Shown here: one piece after another, positions 1 to 17,009 of the stretch
Layout: each line of letters begins with the position of its first letter
Position numbering within the stretch: the first letter of the stretch is position 1
Assembly (NCBI GenBank): GCA_902826815.1
Contig: CADEGF010000006.1
Coordinates: forward strand, 111,359 to 175,358
Source: an uncultured Mycobacteriaceae bacterium
GTDB lineage: Bacteria > Actinomycetota > Actinomycetes > Mycobacteriales > Mycobacteriaceae
DNA: 64,000 nt
Reading direction: 5' to 3'
The notes under the pieces: generated by a model
Seen by the model: the letters and a program-made list of their open reading frames with translations, nothing else
Database searches by the model: none
Told to the model about the DNA's origin: nothing
Translations under genes and position numbers: made by a program

Positions 1-1095
1 TCACTGCGCCAGATCGGCTGGGGCGGGCCGCAGCGGCAGGTTCAGGGCCTTCTGCGCACGCCACAGCGGCACAAGGTCGACGTAGTCGTGCCAGTTGGTG
101 CCCGGCGGGACGACCTTCAGGTCCATCTGCTCGTTGATGAACTGATCCATGTCCTTGACATCGAAGCCCCCGTCGCCGGTGTGATAGTTGGCGTTCTGCT
201 CATCGGCGTACGCATCGCGGTACGGCTGTGGAAGCTCGAAGCCCTTCGCGGCCATCAGGTCGAGAACCGCATCCTTGTTGTTGATGTCGTTGATGAACTG
301 GCGGGCCTTGAGCGTCGCCGTCAGGAAGGCCGCCGCGGTTTCCGGGCTCTCGGTCAGGATCTTGTTGGCGGCCCAGCCGTTCTGCGGCGCCCGTCCCAGC
401 TCCTGGAACAAGAACTTGCCGCCCTCGGCCTCCAACAGTGACTTGTGCCGAATCTGAAGGCTCGCACCGTCGACCGTGCCCGCGATCACCGACTGCAGGC
501 GCTGGTTGGACTGGCCCCCCGTGCTGACCAGTTTGACGTCAGTGTCGGGATTGATTCCGTTGTCGGTGAGGAGCTTTCGAATCAGGAAGTCGTTGCGACT
601 GCCGAACTGTCCTCCGGTGATCGTCTTGCCCTTGAGATCCTCGGCCGTATTGATGCCCTTGCGCACACCGAGGATGTTCGCCTCGCCGCCGAGATAGACC
701 GACAGATACCGCACCCCCGAGTTCGACTTCTTCGCCGCCGCGATAGAGGTATCGGTGTCGTACAGGGCGAAGTCCACCGACCCTCCGATCAGCGCAGGCA
801 GCGGATCCTCGACGGTCACGATCTCGACATTGTCGATCCCGACTTCCTTGAAGTAGCCCTTGTCCTGCGCCACCAGGATGTCGTGATGGAACAGGTAATA
901 GGGGTTGTCCACGGCCACCGTGATGTTCTTCTTCACCTGCGACGTGTCGATCGTGGCGTCGATCTCGTCGGCATTGGCCGGGAGGCTGGCCGCTCCCTCC
1001 GTGGGTGCGGCGTCGTCGCCTCCGCAGGCCGTCAGCACCGTCGCGAACGCCAAACTCGCGCTCACCAAGGCGAGCAATCGTTTGCTTCTCCTCAT
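1..1095 (-). CDS. ABC transporter substrate-binding lipoprotein (NMT1/SsuA type)
   Basis: A 364-aa extracytoplasmic binding protein of an aliphatic-sulfonate/nitrate/taurine-type ABC importer. A basic N-terminus and hydrophobic stretch end in lipobox LTAC with the acylated Cys at residue 24, so it should be a membrane-anchored lipoprotein. The NMT1-like fold follows: ligand-lobe start around VAVDNPYYLFHHDI, then GGSVDFALYDTD and a GKTITGGQFGSRNDFLIRKL stretch typical of the family. It is the last gene of a minus-strand operon after the ATPase and permease, 45 bp downstream of the permease. The LacI-type operator at 2891-2904 probably controls it. The substrate is unknown; the family also covers pyrimidine-precursor and phthalate importers. 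Confidence 0.85.
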   Translation of the reverse strand: MRRSKRLLALVSASLAFATVLTACGGDDAAPTEGAASLPANADEIDATIDTSQVKKNITVAVDNPYYLFHHDILVAQDKGYFKEVGIDNVEIVTVEDPLPALIGGSVDFALYDTDTSIAAAKKSNSGVRYLSVYLGGEANILGVRKGINTAEDLKGKTITGGQFGSRNDFLIRKLLTDNGINPDTDVKLVSTGGQSNQRLQSVIAGTVDGASLQIRHKSLLEAEGGKFLFQELGRAPQNGWAANKILTESPETAAAFLTATLKARQFINDINNKDAVLDLMAAKGFELPQPYRDAYADEQNANYHTGDGGFDVKDMDQFINEQMDLKVVPPGTNWHDYVDLVPLWRAQKALNLPLRPAPADLAQ

Positions 1096-1140: not shown

Positions 1141-1986
1141 CTATGCGCGCGCGAAGTCCCGCCAGGGCGCGGCGCGGCGTTCGACCCAGCGCATTCCCTG
1201 CACGAGCCCCACCGAAATGACCGCGAGCAGCAGCAAGGTGGCATACATCATCGGCGCATCGAACTGGTCGCCCGCCCGGTCCAGCAGGAACCCGAGTCCC
1301 TTTCCACCTCCGCCGAGCAGCTCCCCGATCAGCATCCCGACCAGCCCACGGGCGATGCCCTGGTTGATGCCGCTGATCACGAACGGCAGCGTGAACGGCA
1401 AAATCACCTTGGCGTAGAGCTGCGCCTCGTTCGCACCGAAGATCCGGCCGGCCCGCACCAGCGACGGGTCGACGGTCTTCACGCCCTCCATGCAGTTCAC
1501 CATCATCGGGAAAACCGCCGAAAGCACAATGATCGTGAGCTGCATGGAATTACCGAAGCCCAGGATCAGGATCAGCAACGGGATGAGGGCGACACGCGGC
1601 AACGACGTCATCGCCCACACATAGGGGGACAGGATCAGGTCGATGATCCGCACTCCGCCCATCAAAAGGCCGAGCGGGATGCCGATCACCGCAGCGATCA
1701 GCAGTCCGATGGTGAAGTTCTGCACGCTGTGGAGCAGTTGCGGGCCGATGATGCCGTCGACGAATCCGTGATACATCGCCGAGAACATGTCCGTGGCCTT
1801 GGGGAAGAACAGCGGGTTGATGATTTCGGAAAGGGCGAGCAGCTGCCAGCCCACGAAGAACAGCGTCAAGTTGATCACCGTGATGATGAGGGTCCGGAAG
1901 GGCGCCCATTTGCTGCGCGTGATCGTCTCGGTGACGGCAGCGGAGTCGGCGGTCGCGTCCGCCGTCGGCAGCGTGCTGGTACTCAT
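1141..1986 (-). CDS. ABC transporter permease (SsuC/TauC type)
   Basis: A 281-aa inner-membrane permease of the BPD_transp_1 family. A cytoplasmic N-terminus (residues 1-30) leads into about six hydrophobic segments. The EAA coupling loop that contacts the ATPase is visible as GANEAQLYAKVILP followed by the conserved glycine region GISGINQ-like and GLVGMLIGELLGGG. The ATG at 1986 was chosen because it forms a 4-base ATGA overlap with the stop of the ATPase gene, implying translational coupling. It works with the ATPase (1983-2852) and lipoprotein (1-1095) as one importer. Confidence 0.85.
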   Translation of the reverse strand: MSTSTLPTADATADSAAVTETITRSKWAPFRTLIITVINLTLFFVGWQLLALSEIINPLFFPKATDMFSAMYHGFVDGIIGPQLLHSVQNFTIGLLIAAVIGIPLGLLMGGVRIIDLILSPYVWAMTSLPRVALIPLLILILGFGNSMQLTIIVLSAVFPMMVNCMEGVKTVDPSLVRAGRIFGANEAQLYAKVILPFTLPFVISGINQGIARGLVGMLIGELLGGGGKGLGFLLDRAGDQFDAPMMYATLLLLAVISVGLVQGMRWVERRAAPWRDFARA

Positions 1987-2852
1987 CGGTCCCCTCCGGT
2001 CTTGGCTCCCAGTGCCTCGGCCTGGAGCTGGCTCCAGATGTGCTGGCGCAACTCGCCGAACCGGTCGCTGCGCCTGACGCCTTCGTCGAAGCGGGATCTG
2101 GGCAGGTCGACGTCGATGATTTCCTTGACGCGGCCCGGCCTGTTCGAGACCATGACCACTCGGTCCGCGAGCGTCAGCGCCTCGTCGATCGAGTGGGTGA
2201 TGAAGAAGACGGTCTGGCCCGTTTCGGCGATGATCTTCTCGAACTCGGCCTGCATGGCCTCGCGCGTCATGGCATCGACCGCCCCGAAGGGCTCGTCCAT
2301 CAACAGGATCTCCGGTTCCGACACCAGGGCACGTGCGATCCCGACCCGTTGGCGCATTCCGCCCGAGAGCTCGTACGGATAGGACTTCTCGAAGCCGGTG
2401 AGACCGACGAGCTCGAGCGCATCGCCGATGCGCTCCCGCATCACGGACTTCGAGGGGCGGGGGCGCCTGTTCTCCAGAGCGAACCTGACGTTGTTGTAGA
2501 CCGTGCGCCATGGCAGAACCGCGTAGTCCTGGAACACCATGGTCCGGTCCGGACCCGGCCCGTCGACGATCCGCCCACCGACTCGGATCGTCCCTTCCAG
2601 CGGCTTCATGAACCCGGCGATCATGTTGATCAGCGTGGTCTTACCGCAACCGGACGGGCCGACGATGGCGACGAACTCTCCCTCGTACACGTCGAGGAAC
2701 ACGTCCCTCAGTGCGATGAGCCGAGTCTTTTGCCGCTTGTTCTCGTATCCGGCACTCACGCCGCGAATCTCGATCAGCGGCGTCCGGGTCGCAGGCTCGT
2801 CGCCGATGTCAGACCGTGGTTGGCGGGTCACCGAGGGAACAGCCTGACTCAT
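1983..2852 (-). CDS. ABC transporter ATPase (SsuB/TauB type)
   Basis: A 289-aa nucleotide-binding subunit energising the nitrate/sulfonate/taurine-type importer. Walker A GPSGCGKT lies at residues 65-72, the signature is LSGGMRQRVGIARAL, Walker B is ILLMDEPF followed by the D-loop GAVDAMT, and the switch His is in FFITHSIDEAL. An in-frame extension back to 3014 exists, but the ATG at 2852 is preferred because the extension lacks family similarity and runs over the operator at 2891-2904. It is the first gene of the operon and overlaps the permease start by 4 bp. Confidence 0.88.
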   Translation of the reverse strand: MSQAVPSVTRQPRSDIGDEPATRTPLIEIRGVSAGYENKRQKTRLIALRDVFLDVYEGEFVAIVGPSGCGKTTLINMIAGFMKPLEGTIRVGGRIVDGPGPDRTMVFQDYAVLPWRTVYNNVRFALENRRPRPSKSVMRERIGDALELVGLTGFEKSYPYELSGGMRQRVGIARALVSEPEILLMDEPFGAVDAMTREAMQAEFEKIIAETGQTVFFITHSIDEALTLADRVVMVSNRPGRVKEIIDVDLPRSRFDEGVRRSDRFGELRQHIWSQLQAEALGAKTGGDR

Positions 2853-2890
2853 GAACTCCCAACCTCTGCTTCTACCCGAACAACAACCAT

Positions 2891-2904
2891 TGCAATCGTT
2901 TGCT
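2891..2904. promoter_or_regulatory. LacI-type operator 1 (ABC operon)
   Basis: TGCAATCGTTTGCT matches the palindrome TGCAA-N-CG-N-TTGCA in all but the last base. It lies 39 bp upstream of the ATPase start. The central CG and dyad are typical of LacI-family sites. It is one of six such sites around the LacI-family gene at 4094. Confidence 0.75.
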
Positions 2905-2999
2905 CCATCCTGCGATGTGACCTGGGCCATGTCAATGGGCGCTCCAAAGAAAAGTTGGCAGCCAACCAAACTGGCAGGTGAACGCCCAGCCAGGGGCTC

Positions 3000-3013
3000 C
3001 ACAAACGATTGCA
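3000..3013. promoter_or_regulatory. LacI-type operator 2 (NMT1-like gene)
   Basis: CACAAACGATTGCA keeps one full half-site and four bases of the other, with the central CG. It lies 20 bp before the ATG at 3033. Its centre is 109 bp from operator 1, close to a whole number of helical turns, so looping across the divergent promoter is possible. Confidence 0.7.
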
Positions 3014-3032
3014 CCTATGGCACCATGTGGTC

Positions 3033-3959
3033 ATGACACGCGCGCGACTACGCATCGGGACGTTCACGCCGTCACTGTTGATCGATCTCGCGCGCTCGAC
3101 CGGACGACTGGACCGCGCCGACCTCGAAGTCGTCGAGTCAGGGGTGCCCTCCTCACCGGCTCAATTCCGCTCGCTCGAAACCGGCGAGTTCGACGTGGTG
3201 ATGACGAGCCCGGACAACGTTCTTGCGTATCGGTTCCTCAGTTCGAATCCGCTTCAACGCAACATGCCGGTGGAGATCCTCGCCGGAATCGATAGGGGCC
3301 TTGGGCTGTCGTTGTGTCTCGCACCATCGGTGGCGAGCATCGCCGGTGTCCGCGATCAGGTGGTCGGGGTCGACGTGCCGGGGTCAGGCTTTGCGTTCGT
3401 GGCCTTCGCACTGTTGGAGCGCGCAGGCCTCGACCAAGACGACTACAGGGTCGAGTCCCTTGGATCGACGCCACGACGCGCTGTTGCACTGACAGAGGGA
3501 ACGTGCGCGGCCACCGTCCTCAATGCAGGCAACGAGTTGAGGGCGACGGCAGCCGGGTGCCGTGTCGTGAGCACGGTCGCGGACATCGGTCCCTACCTCG
3601 GTACGGTCATGGCAGCTTTGACAGACGATGACCCCGCCATCACCGGTCCGCGAAATCGGTTGGCAGAGGTGGTGATCGACACCGCGAAGGAGATCGCCAG
3701 CGGTCGTCTGCGCGCGGAGACCGTCGAAGCCGCGGGACGCCTGCTCGGGTTGGCGGAACCCGAAGCGCTGGCACATCTCGAGTGTCTGGTCGATCCCACC
3801 CACGGCCTCATCACCGACGGGCATGTGGACGGCGCGTCGATCGACACCCTGATCGAACTGAGGCGGCGGCACAGTCCGAGTCCGGATCTCGACGTGGTGG
3901 CGGCGCAGTGGCCGTCGATGCTTACGGCAGCTGCCAGCAGAACAGGCCGTCTCGCGTGA
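3033..3959 (+). CDS. NMT1/THI5-like periplasmic-binding-fold protein without signal peptide
   Basis: A 308-aa protein with a weak NMT1-like substrate-binding fold: N-terminal beta strand RLRIGTFTPS, then GEFDVVMTSPDNVLAY, which resembles the ligand-loop region of SsuA/THI5 proteins. There is no signal sequence or lipobox from the ATG at 3033, so it appears cytosolic, unlike the lipoprotein at 1-1095. It is divergent from the ABC operon and has its own LacI-type operator 20 bp upstream. It could be a cytosolic ligand-binding or enzymatic NMT1-fold protein acting on the imported compound. Function is not established; the fold assignment is moderate. Confidence 0.6.
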   Translation: MTRARLRIGTFTPSLLIDLARSTGRLDRADLEVVESGVPSSPAQFRSLETGEFDVVMTSPDNVLAYRFLSSNPLQRNMPVEILAGIDRGLGLSLCLAPSVASIAGVRDQVVGVDVPGSGFAFVAFALLERAGLDQDDYRVESLGSTPRRAVALTEGTCAATVLNAGNELRATAAGCRVVSTVADIGPYLGTVMAALTDDDPAITGPRNRLAEVVIDTAKEIASGRLRAETVEAAGRLLGLAEPEALAHLECLVDPTHGLITDGHVDGASIDTLIELRRRHSPSPDLDVVAAQWPSMLTAAASRTGRLA

Positions 3960-4060
3960 GCGGCCGCGTCGGCGAATTGTTCGCCAGCCGACCGCGTGAT
4001 GACGGGAATGGACGGATATATTGCACGTGCCCAGGGGGAACTCCATCATTGACGAGAGGC

Positions 4061-4074
4061 TGCATCCGTTTGCA
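4061..4074. promoter_or_regulatory. LacI-type operator 3 (autoregulatory)
   Basis: TGCATCCGTTTGCA is a near-perfect dyad 20 bp upstream of the GTG start of the LacI-family gene at 4094. Its position suggests autorepression. Confidence 0.75.
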
Positions 4075-4093
4075 GTAGAGGAGGGAGTGGGCT

Positions 4094-5128
4094 GTGCACA
4101 GGGCCACGTTGCGTGAGGTCGCGGTGATGGCCGGTGTCCATCCGGCCACCGCGTCACGCGCCTTGAACCAACAGACCGAGAGTTTGGTCAATACCGAGAC
4201 GGCCGCCCGCATCAAGAAGATCGCCACCGAGATGGGCTACTCGCCGAACCCGATTGCGCGCAGCCTCAAGACATCTCGATCGGCCAGCATCGGCCTGGTG
4301 ATCCCGGATCTGACCAATCCCCTGTTCCCGCCCATCGTGCGAGGGGTCGAGGACGTGCTACGCCCGATCGGCTACAACGCCTGGATCGTCAATACCGACA
4401 GCAGGCCCGACGTGGAGAAGGCGGCGGTCGAGTCGTTCCGCCAGCGCAACGTCGAGGGCTTCGTGTTCGCGACCGCGCATTTGAATTACCCCCTGTTCGA
4501 CGAACTTGCCGCGGCGTCCACGCCGATGGTCTTGGTCAACCGTCGCAGCTCCAGTGCCGACATCCCGTCGGTCACCCCCGATGACGCGGCAGGCGTCGCG
4601 ATGGCCATGCAGCATCTCGTCGACCTTGGGCACACCCACATCGTGCATCTCGCGGGACCGCAGGATCTGTCGACCGGCGTCAACAGGCGGCGCGCGTTCG
4701 CCTCCAGCCTGGAGGACCTCCATCTCCCTGCCGAGAGCTCGCGGACGGTGGTCTGCGAGGAATGGTCAGAGCAGGCAGGCGCGAAGGGCATGCGAACACT
4801 GCTGGACGCCGGTCCGGAGTTCACCGCGGTATTGGCGGGTAACGACCTGCTCGCCCTCGGCGTGTACGACGCTCTGTCCGAGCGGGGTATGCGCTGCCCG
4901 GATGACATCAGCGTCGTCGGTTTCAACGACATTCCGTTCATGGACAAGGTCTCACCGCCGATGACGACGGTGCGCATCCCCCACTACGAGATCGGCGCAG
5001 AAGCGGCCCGATTGTTGCTCGAAGTGCTCCACGACCCGGACCGCCATCCGCGTTCGCTGTTGCTCCCGCTGACGATGGCCATCCGGGCCTCGACCGGCCC
5101 CGTGCCCGCACATCGCGTCAACGGCTGA
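4094..5128 (+). CDS. LacI-family transcriptional regulator
   Basis: A 344-aa repressor with an N-terminal LacI helix-turn-helix (TLREVAVMAGVHPATASRAL, residues 5-24), a hinge helix NPIARSLKTSRS around residues 53-64 whose Leu side chain usually intercalates at a central CG, and a periplasmic-binding-like effector domain (IGLVIPDLTNPLFPPIVRG onward). The GTG start is preceded by a strong ribosome site (GAGGAGGGAG, 4079-4088). The same palindrome occurs at its own promoter and at five others nearby, so it is the obvious local regulator of the 1-13.3 kb catabolic locus. The effector is unknown, presumably the transported compound or a metabolite. Confidence 0.9.
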   Translation: MHRATLREVAVMAGVHPATASRALNQQTESLVNTETAARIKKIATEMGYSPNPIARSLKTSRSASIGLVIPDLTNPLFPPIVRGVEDVLRPIGYNAWIVNTDSRPDVEKAAVESFRQRNVEGFVFATAHLNYPLFDELAAASTPMVLVNRRSSSADIPSVTPDDAAGVAMAMQHLVDLGHTHIVHLAGPQDLSTGVNRRRAFASSLEDLHLPAESSRTVVCEEWSEQAGAKGMRTLLDAGPEFTAVLAGNDLLALGVYDALSERGMRCPDDISVVGFNDIPFMDKVSPPMTTVRIPHYEIGAEAARLLLEVLHDPDRHPRSLLLPLTMAIRASTGPVPAHRVNG

Positions 5129-5174
5129 GGGGCCATGCTGCGGTATTGACTTGGGTAGGGCTGCACGGCAGTAT

Positions 5175-5188
5175 TGCAACCGATTGCA
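5175..5188. promoter_or_regulatory. LacI-type operator 4 (dehydrogenase/M24 operon)
   Basis: TGCAACCGATTGCA is a perfect TGCAA-N-CG-N-TTGCA match, 18 bp before the ATG at 5207. Confidence 0.8.
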
Positions 5189-5206
5189 GTCGAATGGGGA
5201 GAGTGA

Positions 5207-6154
5207 ATGGCAGACAACGAGAACACGACCAGCGTCGGCTGGATCGGGGCCGGTCGGATGGGCTACGCGATGATCGAACGCCTGCTGGACGCCGGTCATG
5301 ACGTGTCGGTCTACAACCGGACCCGGTCCAAGGCGGAGCCGCTGGCCGAGCGGGGCGCCAAACTCGTCGACACCCCCGCCCAGTTGGCCGATCGCGAGGT
5401 CGTCTTCGTCATGGTCGCGGCCTCCGACGACCTCGAGGCCGTCACTGTCGGCGAGGACGGGCTTCTGACCGCCGACGTTTCGCCCCAGATCGTCGTCGAC
5501 TGCTCTACCGTCTCGGCTGCCGTCTCGGCGAAGATCCGGGTTCTTGCAGCCGAGCGCGGGACCGCGCTTCTGGCCGCTCCTGTCAGCGGCAATCCGAAGG
5601 TCGTCCGGTCGGGCAAGCTCACGCTGGCGATCTCGGGGCCGCGGGAGTCCTACGACCGCGCCGAGCACCTCCTTCGCCCCCTTGGCCGGGGCGTCACCTA
5701 CGTCGGTGAGGACGAGGTCGCTCGCCTCGTCAAGATCTGCCACAACGTATTCCTCGGCGTGGTCGCGCAGTCCCTCGCCGAGATCACCGTGCTCGCTGAA
5801 CAGGGCGGCACGAGCCGTCAAGCGTTCCTGGAGTTCCTCAACAACTCGGTCATGGGGTCGGTGTTCACCCGGTACAAGTCGCCGGCGTTGGTGAACCTCG
5901 ACTTCTCGCCAACGTTCACCAACGTGTTGTTGCGCAAGGACTTCGACCTCGGACTTGAAGCCGCCCGCGAGCACGGTGTGCCGATGCCCGTAGCGGCGTT
6001 GGCCGCCGAGATGGTGTCCGCCGCGGTCGGTGCTGGCCACACCAGCGAGGACTTCGCCACCTTGCTGCTCGAACAGGCCCGGCGGTCCGGAGTCGAGCTC
6101 GTCTCCGAAAATGCTGTCGTCGACGACGGTCTGGGGACCGACTCGAATGGGTGA
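5207..6154 (+). CDS. NAD(P)-dependent beta-hydroxyacid dehydrogenase (3-HIBDH family)
   Basis: A 315-aa member of the 3-hydroxyisobutyrate/6-phosphogluconate dehydrogenase family, oxidising a beta-hydroxyacid or reducing a semialdehyde in the cytosol. The Rossmann motif GAGRMG is at residues 14-19 and VYNRTRSKAE follows with an Arg suited to NADP. CSTVSA is the substrate-loop serine region, PVSGNPKVVRSGKL the family signature, and the catalytic Lys is in LVKICHN (KxxxN). It is the first gene of a two-gene operon with the M24 protein (8-bp overlap), under operator 4. The exact substrate is unknown (3-hydroxyisobutyrate, tartronate semialdehyde or another). Confidence 0.85.
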   Translation: MADNENTTSVGWIGAGRMGYAMIERLLDAGHDVSVYNRTRSKAEPLAERGAKLVDTPAQLADREVVFVMVAASDDLEAVTVGEDGLLTADVSPQIVVDCSTVSAAVSAKIRVLAAERGTALLAAPVSGNPKVVRSGKLTLAISGPRESYDRAEHLLRPLGRGVTYVGEDEVARLVKICHNVFLGVVAQSLAEITVLAEQGGTSRQAFLEFLNNSVMGSVFTRYKSPALVNLDFSPTFTNVLLRKDFDLGLEAAREHGVPMPVAALAAEMVSAAVGAGHTSEDFATLLLEQARRSGVELVSENAVVDDGLGTDSNG

Positions 6155-7394
6155 GCCGCGGCCCCTTCCGGCTCCGGGGCACATGGGTGTCGACTACGAA
6201 GAACGCGTCGACTTCGCCCGGCTCCGCGACTACCGGCTGGGTCGCGCGAAGGCGGCGCTCGAGTCGAGTGAGTGCGGCGCCTTTCTGCTGTTCGACTTTT
6301 ACAACATCCGCTACACGACGCAGACGTGGATCGGTGGCGCCCTCGGCGACAAGATGACGCGCTACGCGCTGCTTACCCGCACCGCTGACGACCCATGGCT
6401 GTGGGACTTCGGTTCGGCCGTGCGCCACCACCAGATCTACTCGAACTGGCTGCCCGACGAGAACTGCCGCCCCGGCATGCTCGGGATGCGCGGCGCCGTT
6501 GCGCCGTCGGCCGGCCTGATGGTGTCGGCCATCCGCGAGCTCAAGGGCATCCTCTCCGACGCCGGCCTGGCCGACGCCCCGGTGGGCGTCGACATCGTCG
6601 AGCCCCCGTTCCTGTTCGAGATGCAGCGGCAGGGACTGACGGTTGTGGACTGCCAGCAGCGCATGCTCGACGCGCGGGAGATCAAATCCGCCGACGAGAT
6701 CATGCTGCTCACCCAGGCGGCGGCGATGGTCGACGGTGTCTATCAGGACATCGTCGAGGTCCTCAAGCCCGGTATCCGCGAGAACGAGATCGTGGCGCTG
6801 GTGAATCAACGGCTCTACGCGATGGGCTCCGACCAGGTCGAGGCCGTGAACGCGATCAGCGGCGAACGGTGCAATCCCCATCCGCACAATTTCACCGACC
6901 GCTTGATCCGGCCGGGCGACCAGGCCTTCTTCGACATCATCCACAGCTTCAACGGCTATCGCACGTGCTACTACCGGACGTTCAACGTCGGCAGCGCGAC
7001 CCCGAGTCAGCACGACGCCTACACCAAGGCTCGCGAGTGGATGGACGCCTCCATTGCGATGGTCCGGCCCGGCGTCGGCACCGACGAAGTGGCGGCGGTC
7101 TGGCCGAAGGCAACCGAGTTCGGCTTCGACAATGAGCTCGCCGCCTTCGGGCTGCAGTTCGGCCACGGCCTCGGCCTCGGCCTGCACGAACGCCCGATCA
7201 TCTCGCGGCTGAACTCGATGATCGAACCGATCGAGTTGAAGGAGGGCATGGTCTTCGCCCTCGAGACATACTGTCCGGCCTCCGACGGCTACTCGGCCGC
7301 GCGCATCGAGGAAGAGGTGGTGGTGACGGCGGACGGACCCCGGATCCTCACCCTGTTCCCCGCGCAGGACCTCGTCATCGCCAACAAGTACTGA
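6147..7394 (+). CDS. M24 (creatinase/aminopeptidase P-fold) hydrolase with a substituted metal ligand
   Basis: About 415 aa: an N-terminal creatinase-type domain followed by a pita-bread M24 domain. Ligand-type residues visible are Asp263 (FFDIIH), His340 (FGHGLGLGLHE), Glu373 (FALETY) and a C-terminal Glu in RIEEEVVV. The second Asp, expected 11 residues after the first, is Cys274 (GYRTCYYRT), so the classical two-metal site is incomplete. This argues against an ordinary Xaa-Pro peptidase and leaves creatinase-like C-N hydrolysis or a DddP-like lyase activity open. The ATG at 6147 overlaps the upstream gene by 8 bp; ATG 6183 is an alternative. It is co-transcribed with the dehydrogenase. Confidence 0.8.
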   Translation: MGEPRPLPAPGHMGVDYEERVDFARLRDYRLGRAKAALESSECGAFLLFDFYNIRYTTQTWIGGALGDKMTRYALLTRTADDPWLWDFGSAVRHHQIYSNWLPDENCRPGMLGMRGAVAPSAGLMVSAIRELKGILSDAGLADAPVGVDIVEPPFLFEMQRQGLTVVDCQQRMLDAREIKSADEIMLLTQAAAMVDGVYQDIVEVLKPGIRENEIVALVNQRLYAMGSDQVEAVNAISGERCNPHPHNFTDRLIRPGDQAFFDIIHSFNGYRTCYYRTFNVGSATPSQHDAYTKAREWMDASIAMVRPGVGTDEVAAVWPKATEFGFDNELAAFGLQFGHGLGLGLHERPIISRLNSMIEPIELKEGMVFALETYCPASDGYSAARIEEEVVVTADGPRILTLFPAQDLVIANKY

Positions 7395-7415
7395 CCACTA
7401 CCCACCCGGGCGCGG

Positions 7416-8135
7416 TCAGCCCTTCACGCCACCGCCGAAGTACATCTGGCCCAGGTTCGGGTCGGCCAGGATGTCGGCAGCGGGACGCTGGGTGACGACC
7501 CGACCGCTTTCCATCACGATGCCGTCGGTCGCCATCCGCATCCCGAACTTCACATTCTGCTCGACAACCAGGATGGTCTTGCCTGCGTCGCGCATCACCG
7601 TCACGGAGTCGTACACGATGCGCAGTGCTTTCGGGTCGAGACCCAACGACGGCTCGTCCAGCAGGAGTAGCACAGGGTCCAGCATCAGGCAGCGGGCGAA
7701 CTCGACCATCCGGCGCTGGCCGCCGGACAGGTTGCCCGCCGTCTCGCGTGGTCGTTCGGCGACGATCGGGAAAAGTTCGGCGACCTGGGCGTAGCGTTTA
7801 CGCACCAGTGCCCGGTCCCGTCGGACGATGTACGCGCCGAGCAGCACGTTCTCGCGCACCGTCAGGTTCGCGAACAGGGCATCTGACTGGGGGATCTGGG
7901 CCACCCCCAGGCGCAGGATATCGGCAGGCGAGCACCGGTGGATCGGCTCGCCAGCCAACGTGATCTCACCCTCCCGTGGCTTGAGCAGTCCGCTGATGGT
8001 CCGCAGGACCGTGGACTTGCCCGCGCCGTTGGGGCCGACGATGCACGCGATGCCGCCCTCGGCGACGTCGATGTCCACGCCCTGCAGGACGTCGCCGCCG
8101 CCGTAACCCGCCACCACACCACGCAGCGTCAGCAT
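7416..8135 (-). CDS. Branched-chain amino-acid-type ABC transporter ATPase (LivF type)
   Basis: A 239-aa ATPase of the HAAT (Liv) importer family. Walker A GPNGAGKS is at residues 34-41, the signature is [13 protein letters not shown], and Walker [17 protein letters not shown] is a LivF hallmark. It directly abuts the fused LivM-LivG gene (no spacer) and is the last gene of a four-gene operon led by the lipoprotein at 10855-12081. It is convergent with the M24 gene. It supplies the second ATPase beside the LivG-type domain of the fusion. Confidence 0.9.
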
Positions 8136-9974
8136 CTACAGCGCCTTCTCTGGCTCGGGCTCGAGGTCGAAGTTGTCGCCAAGGTAGGCGTCGATCACCG
8201 CGGGGTTGGCCTTGATCTCCCGCGGCGTGCCCGACGCCATCGTCGACCCTCGGCTCAGCACGTGCACCCGTGGGCACAGGTCGAGCACGAAGGGCATGTT
8301 GTGCTCGACGATCAGGAACGTCTTGCCCAGCGCGTTGAGCTCCCGGATCATCGCGGCCATCCGTTCGATCAGCACCGGGTTGATCCCGCCTGCGGGCTCG
8401 TCCAGCAAGATGAGCTTCGGGTCGAGCATCAGGATCTGGGCGAGCTCGACGAGCTTGCGCTGGCCGTACGACAGCTCGCGTGCCGGCTGGTCGCGGAAGT
8501 CTCGCATGCCTACAAATTGCAGGAGTTCCTCGGCATCGCGAGCCTCTTTGCCGCTCACCGCGATGTGGGTGAGCTGCGACCACGAGAAGCTGCGCTGCGG
8601 GGCCACGACGTTCTCCAGCACGGTCATGTCGCCGAAAAGGCGGGTGATCTGGAAGGTGCGTCCGAGCCCGCGGTGTGCACGCGACCACGACGGCAGTCGG
8701 TCGATCCGCTGGCCGTCGAACCAGATCTCACCGGCGTCAGGGGCGATCGTATTGTCGATCAGGTTGAACACGGTGGTCTTGCCCGAGCCGTTCGGGCCGA
8801 TGAGCCCGGTGATCGAACCGTCCGGCACCTCGAACGAGCAGCCGTCTACCGCGACGATGCCGCCGAATCTCTTGGTCAGGCCACTGATCCGGAGCAAGGG
8901 GCGGTCCTGGTCGACCGCACGCTGCTCCCGGGACCCGATCGACAGCTTCGCGAGCGTCGCGCCGTCCGCGATCCGGGCGCCCACCAGCCCGGCCCTTCCC
9001 GCGGTCCGTCGACGCTGCCACGCCTGCTCGACAGTCGGCAGGATGCCCCGCGGCAACCACATCACGATCGCCATCAGCAGGCCGCCGAACAAATACAACC
9101 GCACGTTTCCGCCGCCGAAATTGTTGTTGGCAACCTCGTTCAACGGTTCGATGAGGAACGCGCCCAACACCGGTCCCCACAACGTCCCGCTGCCGCCGAT
9201 GAGCACCGACAACACGACCTGAACGCTCAGCAGGATGCCGAACATGCCCCGTGGATCGACGAACGTGAGGTAGTAGCCGTAGACGGCGCCCGCCATACCG
9301 ACGAACACACTGCTCGCGACGAAACCGATGATCTTGTTGACCGGAAGGTTGATCCCGATGGTCGCGGCCTTGGTCTCGTCGCCACGGATGGCCATCAGCC
9401 CCATGCCGAGCTTGGTGCGACGAATCCACCACGACAGCACCAGCTGAAGCGCGAGCAACAAAACCAAGGAGTAGTAGAACGGCCAGTTCATGATGTCGCG
9501 GTCCCACGACGGCAGCGGCAGGGTGATTCCGCTCGTGCCGTTGGTCACCCCGACCCAGTTGATCGCGATGACGTTGATCAGGAATAGGAACGCGACGGTG
9601 ATGATGACGAAGGCCGCACCGCTCGAGCGCAGCGACACCAGCCCCAGCCCTATCGCTACGAGAGCGGTGACCAGCCCGGCGACGGGCACCCACAGCCACG
9701 GCGACGGCCCCTCGATCTTGGCTGCGAGCACCCCGATCGTGTAACCGCCGAGCCCGATGAAGGCGCCTTGACCCAGCGACACGTAGCCGGCGTATCCCAT
9801 GATGATGTTCAGGCCGCTCGCGCCGATCGCGAACACCAGCGACAAGATGATCATGTTCTCGTAGTACGCGTCGTCGGAAACGACGGGAAACGCCAGCAGG
9901 AATGCGGCAGCCACCACCAAGACCACGCGGCCCAGCTGGCGCGGCTCGGCCAGCGAACGTAGGAAATCAGTCAC
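8136..9974 (-). CDS. Fused Liv-type permease-ATPase (LivM-LivG)
   Basis: A 612-aa fusion. Residues about 1-330 form a LivM-like permease with multiple hydrophobic segments and the motif GYAGYVSLGQGAFIGLGGY. After a linker, residues about 360-612 form a LivG-like ATPase with Walker A GPNGSGKT near 392, signature LSYGQRKLVELAQ and Walker B LILLDEPAGGINP. The GTG start at 9974 overlaps the stop of the LivH gene (GTGA, 9971-9974); a longer in-frame reading to 10256 would intrude deep into livH and is rejected. M-G fusions occur in actinobacteria, so this is a natural architecture rather than an error. Confidence 0.9.
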   Translation of the reverse strand: MTDFLRSLAEPRQLGRVVLVVAAAFLLAFPVVSDDAYYENMIILSLVFAIGASGLNIIMGYAGYVSLGQGAFIGLGGYTIGVLAAKIEGPSPWLWVPVAGLVTALVAIGLGLVSLRSSGAAFVIITVAFLFLINVIAINWVGVTNGTSGITLPLPSWDRDIMNWPFYYSLVLLLALQLVLSWWIRRTKLGMGLMAIRGDETKAATIGINLPVNKIIGFVASSVFVGMAGAVYGYYLTFVDPRGMFGILLSVQVVLSVLIGGSGTLWGPVLGAFLIEPLNEVANNNFGGGNVRLYLFGGLLMAIVMWLPRGILPTVEQAWQRRRTAGRAGLVGARIADGATLAKLSIGSREQRAVDQDRPLLRISGLTKRFGGIVAVDGCSFEVPDGSITGLIGPNGSGKTTVFNLIDNTIAPDAGEIWFDGQRIDRLPSWSRAHRGLGRTFQITRLFGDMTVLENVVAPQRSFSWSQLTHIAVSGKEARDAEELLQFVGMRDFRDQPARELSYGQRKLVELAQILMLDPKLILLDEPAGGINPVLIERMAAMIRELNALGKTFLIVEHNMPFVLDLCPRVHVLSRGSTMASGTPREIKANPAVIDAYLGDNFDLEPEPEKAL

Positions 9975-10855
9975 AGCGCGCTCGCGTCCTCGCGGCGTCG
10001 AGCGCCCATCAATCCCTGTGGGCGCAGCAGCAGCACGGCGAACACGATGAGGTAGGGAAAGGCGGTCGCCCACGCCGACGAGACGTAGGCCGACGTGAAC
10101 GTCTCGGCCAGCCCGAACAACACCGCGCCGGCAATGGCGCCGTTCAGGCTGCCCAGCCCGCCGAGCACCACGATGGCCAGCAGTCGCGCGATCCACATGT
10201 AGTGCGTCCCAGGGACGAACGTGTACAACACCCCGACGATCGCTCCGCCGGTGCATGCGGCCGCAACACCGAGACCGAATACCACCGCGCTGACCGAGGC
10301 GACCTTGATGCCGACCAGCTCAGCACCGGTCGGGTTGGCTGCCGCCGCCCGGATCGCGCGCCCAAGCCAGGTGCGCGTGAGGATCAGGCCGAGCAGCGCC
10401 AGCACCACGATGGCGACAACCCCGCCGAAGACCTGAGCCTTCGGAATGTAGAAGCTGCCGATGCGAAGCGACTCGGTGCCGTAAGCCGGCTCGATCGAGG
10501 TGGCGTTGTTACCCCAGATCACCCCCATCGTGGCCTCGAGCACCAGCGCGAGGCCGAAGGTCAGCAGCACGGTCGAGGCCATCGGCGCCGTTCGGACAGG
10601 CCCGATGGCGACCTTGTAGATGACCCAGCCCAGCGCGAACGACACCGGGACGATGAGGACTATCGCGAGCATGGGGTCGATCCCCAGCCTCGACCACACC
10701 GTGAACGCCAGGAACGCGCCAAGGATCAGGAACGCGCCGTGGGCGATGTTGATGATCCGCATCACGCCGAAGACGAGTGTCAAGCCGCTCGCGGCCAGCG
10801 CGTATACCCCGCCGACCAGCAGACCCAGTACCAGGTACTGCAGGAAGTCCAGCAT
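9971..10855 (-). CDS. Branched-chain amino-acid-type ABC permease (LivH type)
   Basis: A 294-aa integral membrane permease starting MLDFLQYLVLGLLVGGVYAL, the classic LivH N-terminus. GLTLVFGVMRIINIAHGAF is the family signature in the first third, and VLGGLGSLNGAIAGAVLFGL the conserved C-terminal loop region. It forms the translocation channel with the LivM half of the fusion. Its ATG shares one base with the stop of the upstream binding-protein gene (10855), so translation is coupled. Confidence 0.9.
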   Translation of the reverse strand: MLDFLQYLVLGLLVGGVYALAASGLTLVFGVMRIINIAHGAFLILGAFLAFTVWSRLGIDPMLAIVLIVPVSFALGWVIYKVAIGPVRTAPMASTVLLTFGLALVLEATMGVIWGNNATSIEPAYGTESLRIGSFYIPKAQVFGGVVAIVVLALLGLILTRTWLGRAIRAAAANPTGAELVGIKVASVSAVVFGLGVAAACTGGAIVGVLYTFVPGTHYMWIARLLAIVVLGGLGSLNGAIAGAVLFGLAETFTSAYVSSAWATAFPYLIVFAVLLLRPQGLMGARRREDASAL

Positions 10856-12081
10856 CAGACCTTCCCTGGCTCCCATCCCATGACGATGTGGTCGGTGGTA
10901 GCGAACTCCTTCGGCAAGATGTACTCGACCTTTCCGTCCTGCCACTGTCCGGTGAGGAACTCGCCTTGCGGGCGTCCGGCGTCGTCCCAGCTCAAGTCGC
11001 CGAGGATGGTCGAGACGGTGTTGGCGCGCAGCCAGTCGGCCATGGCCAGCTGATCGTCGATGTTGCCGACCTTCTCCACGGCGGCCTGCAGTACCTGGGC
11101 GGCACCGTAGGCGTCAGCCGCATCCTCGGGCGGCAGCCCGCCGAACATCTCCTCGTACTTCTTGACGAACTCCGCGTTGCCCGGCGTCTGTGCCTGGGGG
11201 GCGTGGCTGATCGCGAAGATGATGCCTTCGGTGTTCTCGGGGCCGATTGCCTTGGCGTACTCGTCGCCAAGGCTCGGGGCCGTCGTCTGGTACAGCCACC
11301 TCGGCTTGAAGTCGGCCTTGAGCATCGACCGGACGAACCCGACGCCGTCGTCGAAGAACGCGCCGTGCACGACGAGATCGGGATTGGCCGACCGCACCTT
11401 GCTCACGATCGTGTCGAAGTTGTTCAGATCCGATTGGTATGTCTCGGCGAACACCGTTGCGACGCCTGCGCCCTCAAGCACCTTGCGGATGCCTTCGACG
11501 TTCGGCGTCACGAACGGATCATCGATCGTCGGGTACGCGGCGGTCTTGGGCCGGTCGGTCTCGGGAAGAGCCGATATCCACTTGGCGAACCCCTCGCCTT
11601 GCTTGTCGGCGGTGGCCTGCTGGGAGAAGAAGAGGTACTTCATCCCGCGCTCGAAGATCTCGGGAGCACCGCCTGCAGGCTCGATGTAGAGCATCTGGTT
11701 CTTCTCCGCGACCGTCGACGCGGGCAGGTTCAGCAGTGAGGAGTAGGTGCCGATGAGAAGGTCGACCTTGTCCTTGCTGATCAACGCGTTGTAGTCGGCG
11801 ACGACGGTGTTCTGGTTCGACGCGTCGTCCTTGATCACCAACTCGACCTGGCGGCCCAGCAGCCCGCCCTTGGCGTTGACCATCTCCGCCCAGACCTCGT
11901 AGCCCTCCTTGGCGGCCTTGCCTTGCTGGGAGAACTGGCCCGTCAGCGGGATCGAGGCGCCGATCTTGATCGGATCCGCGGTGTCCCCGCCGTCACCTCC
12001 GCTGCATGCCGCAGAGCCCGCAATCAAGAGGCCCGCCATCGCCACCAGCCCAGCCCGGCGCCATCCTGCACGTCCGTTCAC
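10855..12081 (-). CDS. Liv-type ABC substrate-binding lipoprotein
   Basis: A 408-aa periplasmic-binding protein of the Peripla_BP_6 (amide/branched-chain amino-acid) family, with a lipoprotein signal ending GSAAC (Cys26). The mature part opens DPIKIGASIPLTGQFSQQGKAAKEGYE, characteristic of the family, and the second lobe includes GPENTEGIIFAISHAP. The GTG start at 12081 is preceded by GGAAGGAG; an extension to 12156 would cover operator 5 and is rejected. As leader of the importer operon under the LacI-type operator at 12101-12114, it probably binds the inducing compound or a relative. Peripla_BP_6 proteins also bind amides, urea and aromatic acids. Confidence 0.88.
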   Translation of the reverse strand: MNGRAGWRRAGLVAMAGLLIAGSAACSGGDGGDTADPIKIGASIPLTGQFSQQGKAAKEGYEVWAEMVNAKGGLLGRQVELVIKDDASNQNTVVADYNALISKDKVDLLIGTYSSLLNLPASTVAEKNQMLYIEPAGGAPEIFERGMKYLFFSQQATADKQGEGFAKWISALPETDRPKTAAYPTIDDPFVTPNVEGIRKVLEGAGVATVFAETYQSDLNNFDTIVSKVRSANPDLVVHGAFFDDGVGFVRSMLKADFKPRWLYQTTAPSLGDEYAKAIGPENTEGIIFAISHAPQAQTPGNAEFVKKYEEMFGGLPPEDAADAYGAAQVLQAAVEKVGNIDDQLAMADWLRANTVSTILGDLSWDDAGRPQGEFLTGQWQDGKVEYILPKEFATTDHIVMGWEPGKV

Positions 12082-12100
12082 GGCACTTCTCCTTCCGATC

Positions 12101-12114
12101 CGCAATCGATTGCG
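12101..12114. promoter_or_regulatory. LacI-type operator 5 (Liv-type ABC operon)
   Basis: CGCAATCGATTGCG is a perfect 14-bp palindrome of the same class, 19 bp upstream of the GTG start at 12081. Confidence 0.78.
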
Positions 12115-12187
12115 GTACACCGAACTATTGTGATCCGCGCCATATCTGTCAAGCATGTGGTCCTGTTCGCCTTGGCGACGGCCTGGC

Positions 12188-13273
12188 TCAGCCGTCGACC
12201 CCCCCGCCGTTCCCGATCGCTCGCTGGTGGCTGGGCTCGATAGCCGCCGACTGCTGGTCGTCCTGCGCCACCGCGGGCGACTCGCCCCAGCCGCTCGGCG
12301 CCGCGTTCACGACACCGAACATCTGCGGCGCCTTGGCGTTGACCGTGACCGAAAAGATGTCCGGGCGGTTGTAGTGGCCGGCGAAGTCGTGCCGGAGCTT
12401 CATTCTCACGCCGATGTCCAGGTCCAGATCGGCGTACAGGATCGCCTCCTCGTTGCCCAGTGGGCCCGCGATGATCCTGCTGTCGGGAGCCACGATGACC
12501 GAGCCGCCGCAAAAATCGGGATCGCGGATGACCGCCTCGTCCTTGGCGGACAGCCCCAGCCTCGCGATCGAGTCGTCGTCGATCGTGCCGCACGCGCTGA
12601 TCACGAACGCCTTGGACATCTGTGCGAAGGCTCGTGAGTCCACCGCGACCCGGTCACGCATGGGTGTCCCAACGGCCGGGAAGTGGTTGGGCCAGCTCAT
12701 CACGTGAACGCGGGAGTACTGCGCGGTCACGGCGAATATCGCCAGCGGGTTGGAGTTCTCGCCGCAGATCAGTGCGCTCGCCGGACCGAACCGGGTGTTG
12801 AAGGCGGCGAGGCTGTCGCCGTCGCCCCCGGTGTGCACCAGCCGCTCACCCACGGTCGGCATGAGCTTGCGCCGCTTCCCGAGCAAGGCGCCATCGGGCC
12901 CAAGGAACACCTGGCTGTTGTACAAGGTGCCCGTCGTGTTCGGGATCTTCTCGCACACCCCCACCACGACGTAGGCCTGCGCATCGGCCGCCGCCTGGGC
13001 AAGCTCGCTGATCTCCGGGCCAGGGATCTCGACGGCATTCTTGAACAGGTCGACAGACAGCCGGGTGCTGACCTCGCCCGTCCCGGGATGGAAGTGGAAC
13101 CACACCGGATGCGCGGGGATGAAGCCTTCGGGGAAGGCGATGATGTCGGCCCCACCCGCCCCGGCCTCGCGGATCAGGGCGCACGCCTTCGCCGTGGACT
13201 TCTCGCGGTCGAGGAACACCGAGCTCGCCTGGACGGCGGCCGCCCTGACCCTCGGGAACTCATCACCACTCAT
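12188..13273 (-). CDS. Nitrilase-family carbon-nitrogen hydrolase
   Basis: A 361-aa nitrilase-superfamily enzyme hydrolysing a nitrile (or amide) to acid and ammonia. The triad is visible: Glu49 in IIAFPEGFIPAHP, Lys136 in GKRRKLMPTVGERL and Cys170 in ALICGENSNPLAIFA. The CGEN-N-PLA pattern after the Cys and the length match true nitrilases of the aliphatic/aryl-acetonitrile branch rather than short amidases. The ATG at 13273 fits the family N-terminus (VRAAAVQAS); the upstream extension overlaps operator 6 and is rejected. It is a single-gene unit under that operator, downstream of and codirectional with nothing else in the regulon. Confidence 0.88.
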   Translation of the reverse strand: MSGDEFPRVRAAAVQASSVFLDREKSTAKACALIREAGAGGADIIAFPEGFIPAHPVWFHFHPGTGEVSTRLSVDLFKNAVEIPGPEISELAQAAADAQAYVVVGVCEKIPNTTGTLYNSQVFLGPDGALLGKRRKLMPTVGERLVHTGGDGDSLAAFNTRFGPASALICGENSNPLAIFAVTAQYSRVHVMSWPNHFPAVGTPMRDRVAVDSRAFAQMSKAFVISACGTIDDDSIARLGLSAKDEAVIRDPDFCGGSVIVAPDSRIIAGPLGNEEAILYADLDLDIGVRMKLRHDFAGHYNRPDIFSVTVNAKAPQMFGVVNAAPSGWGESPAVAQDDQQSAAIEPSHQRAIGNGGGVDG

Positions 13274-13312
13274 CGTGGCCAACCTCCAGTCGGGACGCAC
13301 CTGTAAGAAAGT

Positions 13313-13326
13313 GGCAAACGTTTGCA
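13313..13326. promoter_or_regulatory. LacI-type operator 6 (nitrilase)
   Basis: GGCAAACGTTTGCA differs from the consensus only in the first base. It lies 39 bp upstream of the nitrilase start at 13273. Confidence 0.75.
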
Positions 13327-13434: not shown

Positions 13435-14676
13435 TCAAATCAGCATCGCCAATGGATTCTCGATGCGACGGACGAAAGCAGACATCCAAGCAGCGGCGAC
13501 CGTACCGTCGATGACCCGATGGTCGGCCGAAAGGGTGACCGTCATGACGGTGCCCACCGTTAGTTCGCCGTCTTCGACAACGGGCCGCTGGACGGCGCCG
13601 CCGACAGCCAGCATGCCGGACTGTGGCGGGTTGAGAATCGCGGAAAACGCTGTGACGCCGAACATCCCGAGGTTGGACACCGCGAAGCTGCCGCCCTCCA
13701 ACTCGTGCTGCCGTAGTCGCCCGTCCCTGCCCCGCTGCGCGAGGTCGGCGGCTTGAGCAGCGAGCACGGACAGCGGTGTGGCGTCCACACCTCGCAGCAC
13801 CGGTGTGAGCAGACCGCCGTCCACCGCCACAGCCATCGCGATATCGGCACGGTCGTAGCGGCGGATGGACTCGCCGTTCCAGATCGCGTTGGCGTCGGGT
13901 ACGTCGATCAGAGCACCGGCCACCGCTTTCAGGACGAAGTCGTTGAGCGACACTTTGCCCGCGGCGACCGCGTTGACGTTGCGCCGCAACGCGATCAGGT
14001 CGTCGACCCGGCAGTCCGCGCTGAGATAGAAGTGCGGCACCGTCGTCTTGCTCTCGGTGAGGCGGCGCGCGATGGCCTTACGCATTCCAGTCAGCGGGAT
14101 ATCAATGAAACCTGTTGCCGGTTCCCTTGATTCGGTGGCCGGCGCGGGTGTGTGCTCAGTCTGCGGAACGCTGACGGGTTCCGCGGATGACAGCCGATCC
14201 AGATCACGCCGCACGATGCGCCCGGCGGGGCCGGTGCCGTTGACGGTCTCCAGCTCGATCCCCCGTTCCCGCGCGATCCTTCGGACCAGTGGGGTGGCGA
14301 ACAGTCGCCGCCCGTTGGCCGCGGTGACCGGTTCGGCGGCACTCACGGCCGCGAGATCGGCCGGCGGTGCGGCCGAAACGGCGACATCGTCTCGAACGGC
14401 GGAATCAACGGCGGAATCGATGTCGGCCTCGGTTTCCCCTGGCGCCAGCACCACCGCGATCGGCTCGCCGACCGCAATCGCCGCACCCGGTGCCACGATC
14501 AGCCTTGCCACGGTCCCTGCCACCTCGGCGAGGTATTCGACGACAGCCTTCTCGGTTTCGATCTCGGCGAGCGGATCACCGACGGCGACCTGCTGCCCTT
14601 CGGAAACGAGCCAAGATGCGATCACACCCTCGCCCGCGTTGGCAAGCACCTCTGGCATCCGCACGACGGTGGGCAT
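13435..14676 (-). CDS. Dihydrolipoamide acyltransferase, E2 of a 2-oxoacid dehydrogenase complex
   Basis: A 413-aa E2 component that transfers the acyl group from lipoamide to CoA. One N-terminal lipoyl domain carries the lipoylated Lys43 in IETEKAVVEY. A peripheral-subunit-binding domain follows an Ala-rich linker (TPLVRRIARERGIELETVNGTG, about residues 107-128), and a catalytic domain ends in SADHRVIDGTVAAAW with the HxxxDG motif. Its start shares one base with the stop of the fused E1 gene. No E3 gene is adjacent, so the housekeeping Lpd probably serves. The 2-oxoacid (pyruvate, acetoin or branched-chain) is not decidable here. Confidence 0.9.
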   Translation of the reverse strand: MPTVVRMPEVLANAGEGVIASWLVSEGQQVAVGDPLAEIETEKAVVEYLAEVAGTVARLIVAPGAAIAVGEPIAVVLAPGETEADIDSAVDSAVRDDVAVSAAPPADLAAVSAAEPVTAANGRRLFATPLVRRIARERGIELETVNGTGPAGRIVRRDLDRLSSAEPVSVPQTEHTPAPATESREPATGFIDIPLTGMRKAIARRLTESKTTVPHFYLSADCRVDDLIALRRNVNAVAAGKVSLNDFVLKAVAGALIDVPDANAIWNGESIRRYDRADIAMAVAVDGGLLTPVLRGVDATPLSVLAAQAADLAQRGRDGRLRQHELEGGSFAVSNLGMFGVTAFSAILNPPQSGMLAVGGAVQRPVVEDGELTVGTVMTVTLSADHRVIDGTVAAAWMSAFVRRIENPLAMLI

Positions 14677-16892: not shown

Positions 16893-16923
16893 GTCCCTCA
16901 TCTCCATGACCGCAGGTAGCCCG

Positions 16924-16996
16924 ATTGGATCCACTTTAGGCAGATCACGTCGAGAAATCTAGGCCGCTAGCGGCTAATGTGGCAGTATTGGATCCA
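16924..16996. promoter_or_regulatory. Paired ATTGGATCCA sites in the divergent E1/VOC promoter
   Basis: The 10-mer ATTGGATCCA occurs at 16924-16933 and again at 16987-16996, exactly 63 bp apart (about six helical turns). The core TTGGATCCA is a near palindrome. The pair lies between the E1 gene and the VOC-GntR genes, so it is a candidate operator for the GntR regulator at 17560. This is inference from position and repetition. Confidence 0.5.
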
Positions 16997-17009
16997 TTCA
17001 GGAGGGCAG

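Follow-up and report, generated by a model that had tools for sequence, protein, structure and literature searches.

The closest described systems are the local catabolic regulons governed by transcription factors of the LacI family. The comparative survey of Ravcheev et al. 2014 (PMC4052901) assigns a pathway to 182 LacI groups, of which 176 control carbohydrates; autoregulation is seen in 72% of the regulators, and 93% of the regulons contain 20 genes or fewer; the non-sugar groups that it names are PurR, CytR, UriR, AdeR and HpxR. The system described here is found on contig C6 of an uncultured Mycobacteriaceae bacterium (genome G000, 6.87 Mb in 141 contigs), in and to the left of a stretch of 64,000 nucleotides (C6:111359-175358, the window, whose own coordinates are used below unless C6 is given). 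It comprises a set of short palindromes that very probably serve as operators for the LacI-family product of 4094-5128, a predicted local repressor of an inducible uptake-and-catabolism regulon. Like the regulons of that survey, it combines an even palindrome with a central CG, autoregulation, operators upstream of the targets and a regulator gene placed among those targets. It is unlike them in size, since about 21 genes in about ten units exceed what 93% of those regulons hold and yet seemingly serve one pathway, and in content, since those regulons are mostly devoted to carbohydrates and no sugar-catabolic enzyme was recognised here among the proteins scanned. On balance it is taken to be a real LacI regulon with an ordinary mechanism and an unusual content. 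The strings 'mycobacteri', 'streptomyces' and 'nitrilase' have no occurrence in the main text of the survey, as distinct from its supplements, and no description of this regulon was found in the titles and abstract openings of the openly licensed literature, which is no proof of absence.

The initial annotation had reported six sites, each 18-39 bp upstream of a start codon, and had noticed no other in the window. All six are located where it placed them, at 38, 19, 19, 18, 19 and 39 bp from the start codons used here, but a seventh, with two mismatches, had been overlooked at 1073. The putative operators of the window are as follows:

1073..1086 (C6:112431), operator-like AGCAATCGTTTGCT, 2 mismatches, 6 bp past the start codon of the SsuA-like gene and within that gene
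2891..2904 (C6:114249), operator TGCAATCGTTTGCT of the ssuBCA-like operon, preceded by TTGACA on the operon strand; kept upstream of ssuB in 9 of 9 aligned sequences
3000..3013 (C6:114358), operator CACAAACGATTGCA of the NMT1-like gene; kept in 6 of 6 aligned sequences
4061..4074 (C6:115419), operator TGCATCCGTTTGCA, autoregulatory site of lacI; recognisable in most, not all, of 12 aligned sequences
5175..5188 (C6:116533), operator TGCAACCGATTGCA of the beta-hydroxyacid dehydrogenase (HIBADH)/M24 operon, preceded by TTGACT; kept in 7 of 9 aligned sequences
12101..12114 (C6:123459), operator CGCAATCGATTGCG of the liv operon
13313..13326 (C6:124671), operator GGCAAACGTTTGCA of the nitrilase gene

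A second extra match with two mismatches, at 60423, lacks the central CG. Three more sites are present to the left of the window (C6:101216, 102999 and 107329), and the cluster as a whole holds 10 sites in 23.5 kb.

The exact core GCAANCGNTTGC occurs at 15 places in the genome, 7 of them within C6:101217-124683, and the reversed pattern at 13. The stricter core GCAAWCGWTTGC occurs at six places genome-wide, all within the cluster, and its reversed pattern at none. At up to one mismatch, the 14-mer is found at 16 places in the genome, 6 of them in the cluster; at up to two, it is found at 202 places versus 414 for the reversed pattern, and because the control outnumbers the real pattern, this looser form is unspecific. 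Ten of the 202 loose places nevertheless fall in the 23.5-kb cluster, where about 0.7 would be expected from the rate elsewhere, an enrichment of about 15-fold. At up to three mismatches the window holds 34 matches, against 24.9 (sd 5.2) in shuffled sequences, 6 of 100 of which reach 34; this being nearly ordinary, the case rests on the strict sites together with the genome-wide and cross-species controls, and the loose pattern was dropped in favour of strict cores and local clustering alone. Of the eight exact GCAANCGNTTGC cores outside the cluster, five are inside long open reading frames (ORFs), and crude ORF calls, filtered by third-position G+C, place none in the 250 bp before an ORF start; a search limited to those eight cores thus yielded no off-cluster member of the regulon.

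The same arrangement recurs in other genomes. Orthologs of the LacI protein with at least 86% identity are present in 9 of the 396 genomes of the genus comparison (own included), and two more genomes reach 55%. Seven of the 396 (G000, G014, G167, G202, G241, G314 and G319) contain at least five copies of GCAAWCGWTTGC; six of these, the own genome included, carry a LacI of at least 86% identity, and G202 carries a 47% relative. A wider sample was obtained by scanning genome contigs with two peptide patterns of the M24-family enzyme of the cluster, which yielded 219 relatives, the best 80 of which were kept (1.50 Mb). These 80 loci contain 132 sites at up to one mismatch, whereas the reversed pattern gives 5 and a first-order Markov model with three simulations per locus predicts 3.0; at least one site is found in 63 loci and at least two in 44, and for 123 of the 132 sites a start from one of the gene families of the cluster is within -60 to 350 bp. 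The families themselves are found in varying numbers of the 80 loci: HIBADH in 78, LacI in 56 (55 at 40% identity or more), Glx in 47, LivK in 45, LivH in 44, NMT1 in 41, E1 in 39, E2 in 32, FrsA in 29, XdhS in 21, CMD in 15, AmOx in 13, SsuA in 5 and nitrilase in 1, these counts being lower bounds because many loci end at contig ends. The occurrence of the same sites by the same genes across many Actinomycetota points to a real, shared switch.

In G290, G119, G368, G208 and G248, strict cores also occur in pairs 142-166 bp apart, with LacI relatives of 48-49% identity encoded a few kb away; this is a recurrent arrangement of two putative operators.

Alignments of the upstream regions show that the sites are kept while their flanks diverge. 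In addition to the conservation given above, the site is kept upstream of CMD in 6 of 6 aligned sequences, upstream of frsA in 4 of 4 and upstream of the alpha/beta-hydrolase gene in 4 of 4, one of the latter with a changed base. The two sequences without the HIBADH site are those of G014 and G167, where the gene follows the liv genes instead. Upstream of lacI, the site has decayed in L061 and L077 and carries changes in several more of the 12 sequences. The site inside ssuA is kept in 8 of 9 sequences (G014 with a changed base) and is missing in L077; as it lies in coding sequence, the protein may constrain its conservation too. Of 150 site-gene pairs, 71 have a TTGAC sequence whose first base lies 22-38 bp before the site, compared with 9 for the control GTCAA, and in 67 of the 71 this distance is 27-35 bp. 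By family, the box is present in 21 of 25 livK, 28 of 40 HIBADH, 15 of 20 frsA and 5 of 6 ssuB pairs. With the usual spacing of -35 and -10 elements, this position would place the operator at the transcription start, and the regulator probably works by repressing the promoter.

According to this mechanism, in the absence of inducer a LacI dimer would bind the central-CG palindrome TGCAAWCGWTTGCA. At many units the first base of a TTGAC-type -35 box precedes this palindrome by about 27-35 bp, which would put the palindrome over the -10/start region, where the bound protein would block initiation; the copy inside ssuA would either act as a roadblock or protect a promoter within the gene. Once a compound of the pathway had released the repressor, lacI itself would be expressed along with the enzymes, two ABC importers and a cytosolic factor resembling a binding protein. 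What the sequences show is the sites with their enrichment, conservation and placement; binding by this LacI, its action as a repressor and an effector that is no sugar and probably contains nitrogen are inferred. The alternative that survives best, although unlikely, is that the protein works as an activator, or as a co-repressor-dependent repressor in the manner of PurR, instead of being released by an inducer. The PurR-type operator core is GCAAACGTTTGC, akin to the core found here, which resembles the PurR/CcpA operator type in general, and the best-scoring solved relative of the protein, to which its residues 4-333 align, is a chain of CcpA, a regulator that acts with both signs. However, operators behind TTGAC boxes near the presumed start occupy the position of a repressor, the gene set looks catabolic and, as stated in the main text of PMC4052901, most LacI-family regulators bind DNA in the ligand-free form.

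The predicted product of 4094-5128, of 344 aa, contains a LacI-type helix-turn-helix (PF00356, 42.7 bits with a cut-off of 27) and a periplasmic-binding-protein-like core (PF13377, 8.5e-35), which assign it to the LacI family. Its recognition helix is GVHPATASRAL and its hinge RSLKT. The hinge leucine of LacI-family proteins reads the central CG of the palindrome, and this CG is present in 132 of the 132 sites of the related loci even though a mismatch was permitted there. Tetrameric LacI carries an extra C-terminal length that this protein does not have, so it is probably a dimer, which would make the ssuA-internal site a roadblock rather than a loop partner. A helix of the form VHx[AGS]T[AV]S[RK] is shared by 66 of 83 LacI sequences, the exceptions including a GVN variant in five metagenome-assembled genomes of uncultured actinobacteria and all 7 other LacI proteins recovered from the own genome by crude extraction, a set that leaves out three matches above the helix-turn-helix cut-off and two below it; 11 own-genome matches exceed that cut-off. 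In a tree, 70 of the sequences, the own one included, form one weakly supported group apart from the other own-genome LacI proteins.

One of these, encoded at G000:C58:3873-4931, is a paralogue of 43% identity near another SsuABC-type gene set, with palindromes at 3782, 13799 and 13971 that resemble the cluster sites, TGCAAACGTATGCA and TACAAACGTTTGCT among them; this locus is possibly a sister regulon. That the sites of the cluster belong to this paralogue or to another of the 11 own-genome candidates, or are shared with it, is improbable: similar sites and similar neighbouring genes speak for it, but the C58 recognition helix is QLDISTVSRAL in place of GVHPATASRAL, the genomes rich in strict cores mostly carry the own-type LacI, and the strict W-W core is absent outside C6.

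Several observations weigh against the assignment of the sites to a promoter-blocking repressor of this type. Strict cores number just three each in G093, G165 and G252, which are among the nine genomes with a LacI ortholog. Among the 55 M24 loci with a LacI relative of at least 40% identity, 44 have a site at up to one mismatch and 11 do not, whereas 19 of the 25 loci without such a relative in the fetched stretch do have sites, so the presence of LacI in the fetched stretch is not discriminating. The tree node uniting the 70 LacI sequences has weak support (83/72), and the similar sites beside the 43% paralogue make cross-talk possible. As for the promoters, the TTGAC box is found in none of the NMT1 (0/30), lacI (0/15), E1 (0/4), AmOx (0/4), Glx (0/3) and Nit (0/1) pairs, and a strict sigma-70 scan of 2840-5260 gave no promoter. 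Against this stand putative operators at several units and at the regulator's own gene, strict cores confined to the locus and conservation in orthologous loci, the features of a local autoregulated LacI regulon. The grouping into one regulon offered by the initial annotation is therefore well supported by the confinement of the strict core, the recurrence across species, the conserved sites and the LacI relatives that share the recognition helix in a weakly supported group. Its extent had been drawn too small, as the regulon appears to include 10 sites, about 10 transcription units and about 21 genes and to run about 10 kb beyond the left edge of the window.

The genes of the predicted regulon within the window are the following, with operon limits drawn from gene spacing:

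1..1095, minus strand, SsuA/NMT1-type substrate-binding lipoprotein (PF09084, 2.9e-21; lipobox-type N-terminus), third gene of the ssuBCA-like operon
1141..1986, minus strand, ABC permease of the SsuC/TauC type (PF00528, 1.4e-24)
1983..2852, minus strand, ABC ATPase of the SsuB/TauB type (PF00005, 1.3e-32), first gene of the operon
3033..3959, plus strand, NMT1-like protein of solute-binding fold, probably cytosolic (weak TIGR02122)
4094..5128, plus strand, LacI-family regulator (PF00356, PF13377)
5207..6154, plus strand, beta-hydroxyacid dehydrogenase of the HIBADH/tartronate-semialdehyde reductase superfamily (PF03446, 3.5e-38)
6150..7394, plus strand, M24-family enzyme (PF00557, 4.4e-37)
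7416..8135, minus strand, LivF-type ATPase (Pfam scan)
8136..9977, minus strand, fused LivM-type permease and LivG-type ATPase (PF02653 plus PF00005)
9974..10858, minus strand, LivH-type permease, assigned by its position and by the homologues that 44 of the 80 loci contain
10855..12081, minus strand, LivK-type binding lipoprotein (PF13458, 4.1e-57), first gene of the liv operon
12188..13273, minus strand, carbon-nitrogen hydrolase of the nitrilase/cyanide-dihydratase type (PF00795, 1.1e-37; NitA chain 6zby, 4e-52)

The units, by operator, would be these:

C6:101216, putative alpha/beta hydrolase gene and TauE
C6:102999, CMD, then the 2Fe-2S and molybdopterin subunits of an Xdh-type hydroxylase
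C6:107329, divergent FrsA-like hydrolase and CrtI/amine-oxidase-like FAD enzyme
C6:114249 and 112431, ssuB-ssuC-ssuA, then two LVIVD-type genes
C6:116533, HIBADH-M24
C6:123459, livK-H-MG-F
single genes: NMT1-like, lacI and nitrilase

The ssuBCA-like operon seems to continue past the left window edge with the two LVIVD propeller-type genes, judging by layout and by an LVIVD profile match on one of them. The putative alpha/beta hydrolase at C6:101216 has no Pfam family, and its PDB matches are no better than E 0.19. Next to the nitrilase gene, at 13435-17534, there are E2, fused E1 and VOC genes, which recur near M24 in 32, 39 and 47 of the 80 loci; here none of them has its own operator at up to two mismatches. 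Directly left of the regulon (C6:97527-101158, or L016:2527-6158) there are a second M24-type gene, an aminotransferase and an M20 peptidase, a stretch that has no operator of this type at up to two mismatches.

Two of the members proposed by the initial annotation need qualification. The nitrilase, found in 1 of the 80 other M24 loci, is a narrow addition to the regulon, and the NMT1-like protein has no evident signal peptide. The latter gave no Pfam match and no PDB match at E up to 1. Its 12 inspected N-termini start directly at a conserved strand and have no lipobox, and a crude hydropathy test was passed by 17 of 47 NMT1, 51 of 51 LivK and 11 of 11 SsuA sequences (a few of them duplicated). 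The protein and its homologues are therefore likely to be cytosolic, perhaps with exceptions among the homologues. The NMT1-like gene often adjoins lacI.

Across 45 sequences selected from its relatives (from 42 of the 80 loci and three genomes), the M24-family enzyme shows 80-97% identity. It keeps D251, H328, E361 and E377, and where the canonical second metal aspartate would align it has Cys262, invariant in 46 of 46 aligned sequences, the own one included. With this Cys in place of the second Asp, the enzyme is not a canonical M24 metallopeptidase with the D-D-H-E-E dinuclear site, and it differs in this residue from DddP, PepQ, ectoine hydrolase and creatinase, with which it shares the family. 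Of the five other M24 proteins of the own genome that were extracted in a usable frame, three (L173, L174 and L180) have Asp at this column, and L181 and L183 are also without it. The score of the enzyme is far below all the NCBIfam M24 cut-offs shown. Relatives of the enzyme are found in 49 plasmid records, among them copies of about 65% identity on alphaproteobacterial plasmids such as those of Phaeobacter, and the four plasmid neighbourhoods inspected (Phaeobacter, Paenarthrobacter, Streptomyces and Pacificitalea) name no substrate. Genes annotated as 2-oxoacid dehydrogenase (E1/E2) and succinate-semialdehyde dehydrogenase (SSADH) adjoin the M24 gene in Phaeobacter, Pacificitalea and Streptomyces, and not in Paenarthrobacter. 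An aldehyde-dehydrogenase family is present, by loose clustering, in 43 of the 80 M24 loci; the one member scanned, whose gene directly follows M24 in L061, resembles SSADH, and no aldehyde dehydrogenase was found among the own-locus proteins scanned.

A nitrogen-containing compound is suggested by the SSADH-like and E1/E2 neighbours and by three enzymes of the cluster, the nitrilase, the FrsA-like hydrolase and the Xdh-type hydroxylase, and the substrate may tentatively be placed among compounds of this kind that converge on a C4 semialdehyde. A sugar-utilisation regulon does not fit the cluster, as neither a sugar transporter nor a sugar-catabolic enzyme was found among the cluster proteins scanned, which were all but LivH and one LVIVD protein. 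A non-sugar effector is called into question by the M24 genes of the Phaeobacter and Pacificitalea plasmids, which adjoin sugar-annotated ABC transporters and ThuA. The regulator would share a non-carbohydrate effector with PurR, CytR, UriR, AdeR and HpxR, but these act on nucleobases or nucleosides, and only the two-subunit molybdenum hydroxylase is recognised here as being of purine/pyrimidine type.

That the pathway is a known one, either nicotine or dimethylsulfoniopropionate (DMSP) catabolism, is very improbable. A match to 2,6-dihydroxypseudooxynicotine hydrolase (2jbw, 3.1e-43) is given by the FrsA-like protein, encoded left of the window. The nicotine-plasmid cluster of that hydrolase shares with the present one a molybdenum hydroxylase and a flavin amine-oxidase-like protein and, with relatives of the locus, a semialdehyde-dehydrogenase-like family. 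This likeness is one at the level of gene families, and the FrsA-like protein is only 33.5% identical to the nicotine-plasmid enzymes so annotated (36.5% at best in the plasmid collection), which does not make it an ortholog of the nicotine pathway hydrolase. As for DMSP, the lyase DddP is the best NCBIfam match of the M24 enzyme, but at 87 bits against a cut-off of 600. The metal ligands of DddP, which lay outside the M24 alignment, are Asp295, Asp297, Asp307, His371, Glu406 and Glu421 according to PMC4108388, with an Asp at the column where the enzyme has Cys. Lastly, that the sites are chance or compositional palindromes, as their frequency at two to three mismatches, not above the reversed control, might suggest, is contradicted by the 132 sites of the related loci and deserves almost no credence.

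A speculative extension of the local-repressor reading is that a widespread actinobacterial LacI group with GVHPATASRAL-type helices senses a new class of non-sugar effector, nitrogen-containing and perhaps N-heterocyclic, and controls an undescribed pathway around the Cys-bearing enzyme of M24 fold, perhaps with new chemistry, and that a cytosolic partner, whose gene often neighbours lacI, would deliver or buffer the inducer. LacI-family proteins are mostly sugar sensors, and here a conserved LacI group is found with genes among which no enzyme of sugar catabolism was recognised. The operators mark which genes belong together, so that the motif provides a testable gene list for the pathway across many Actinomycetota, and the strongly conserved M24 enzyme, with its altered metal-site residue, is the first target.

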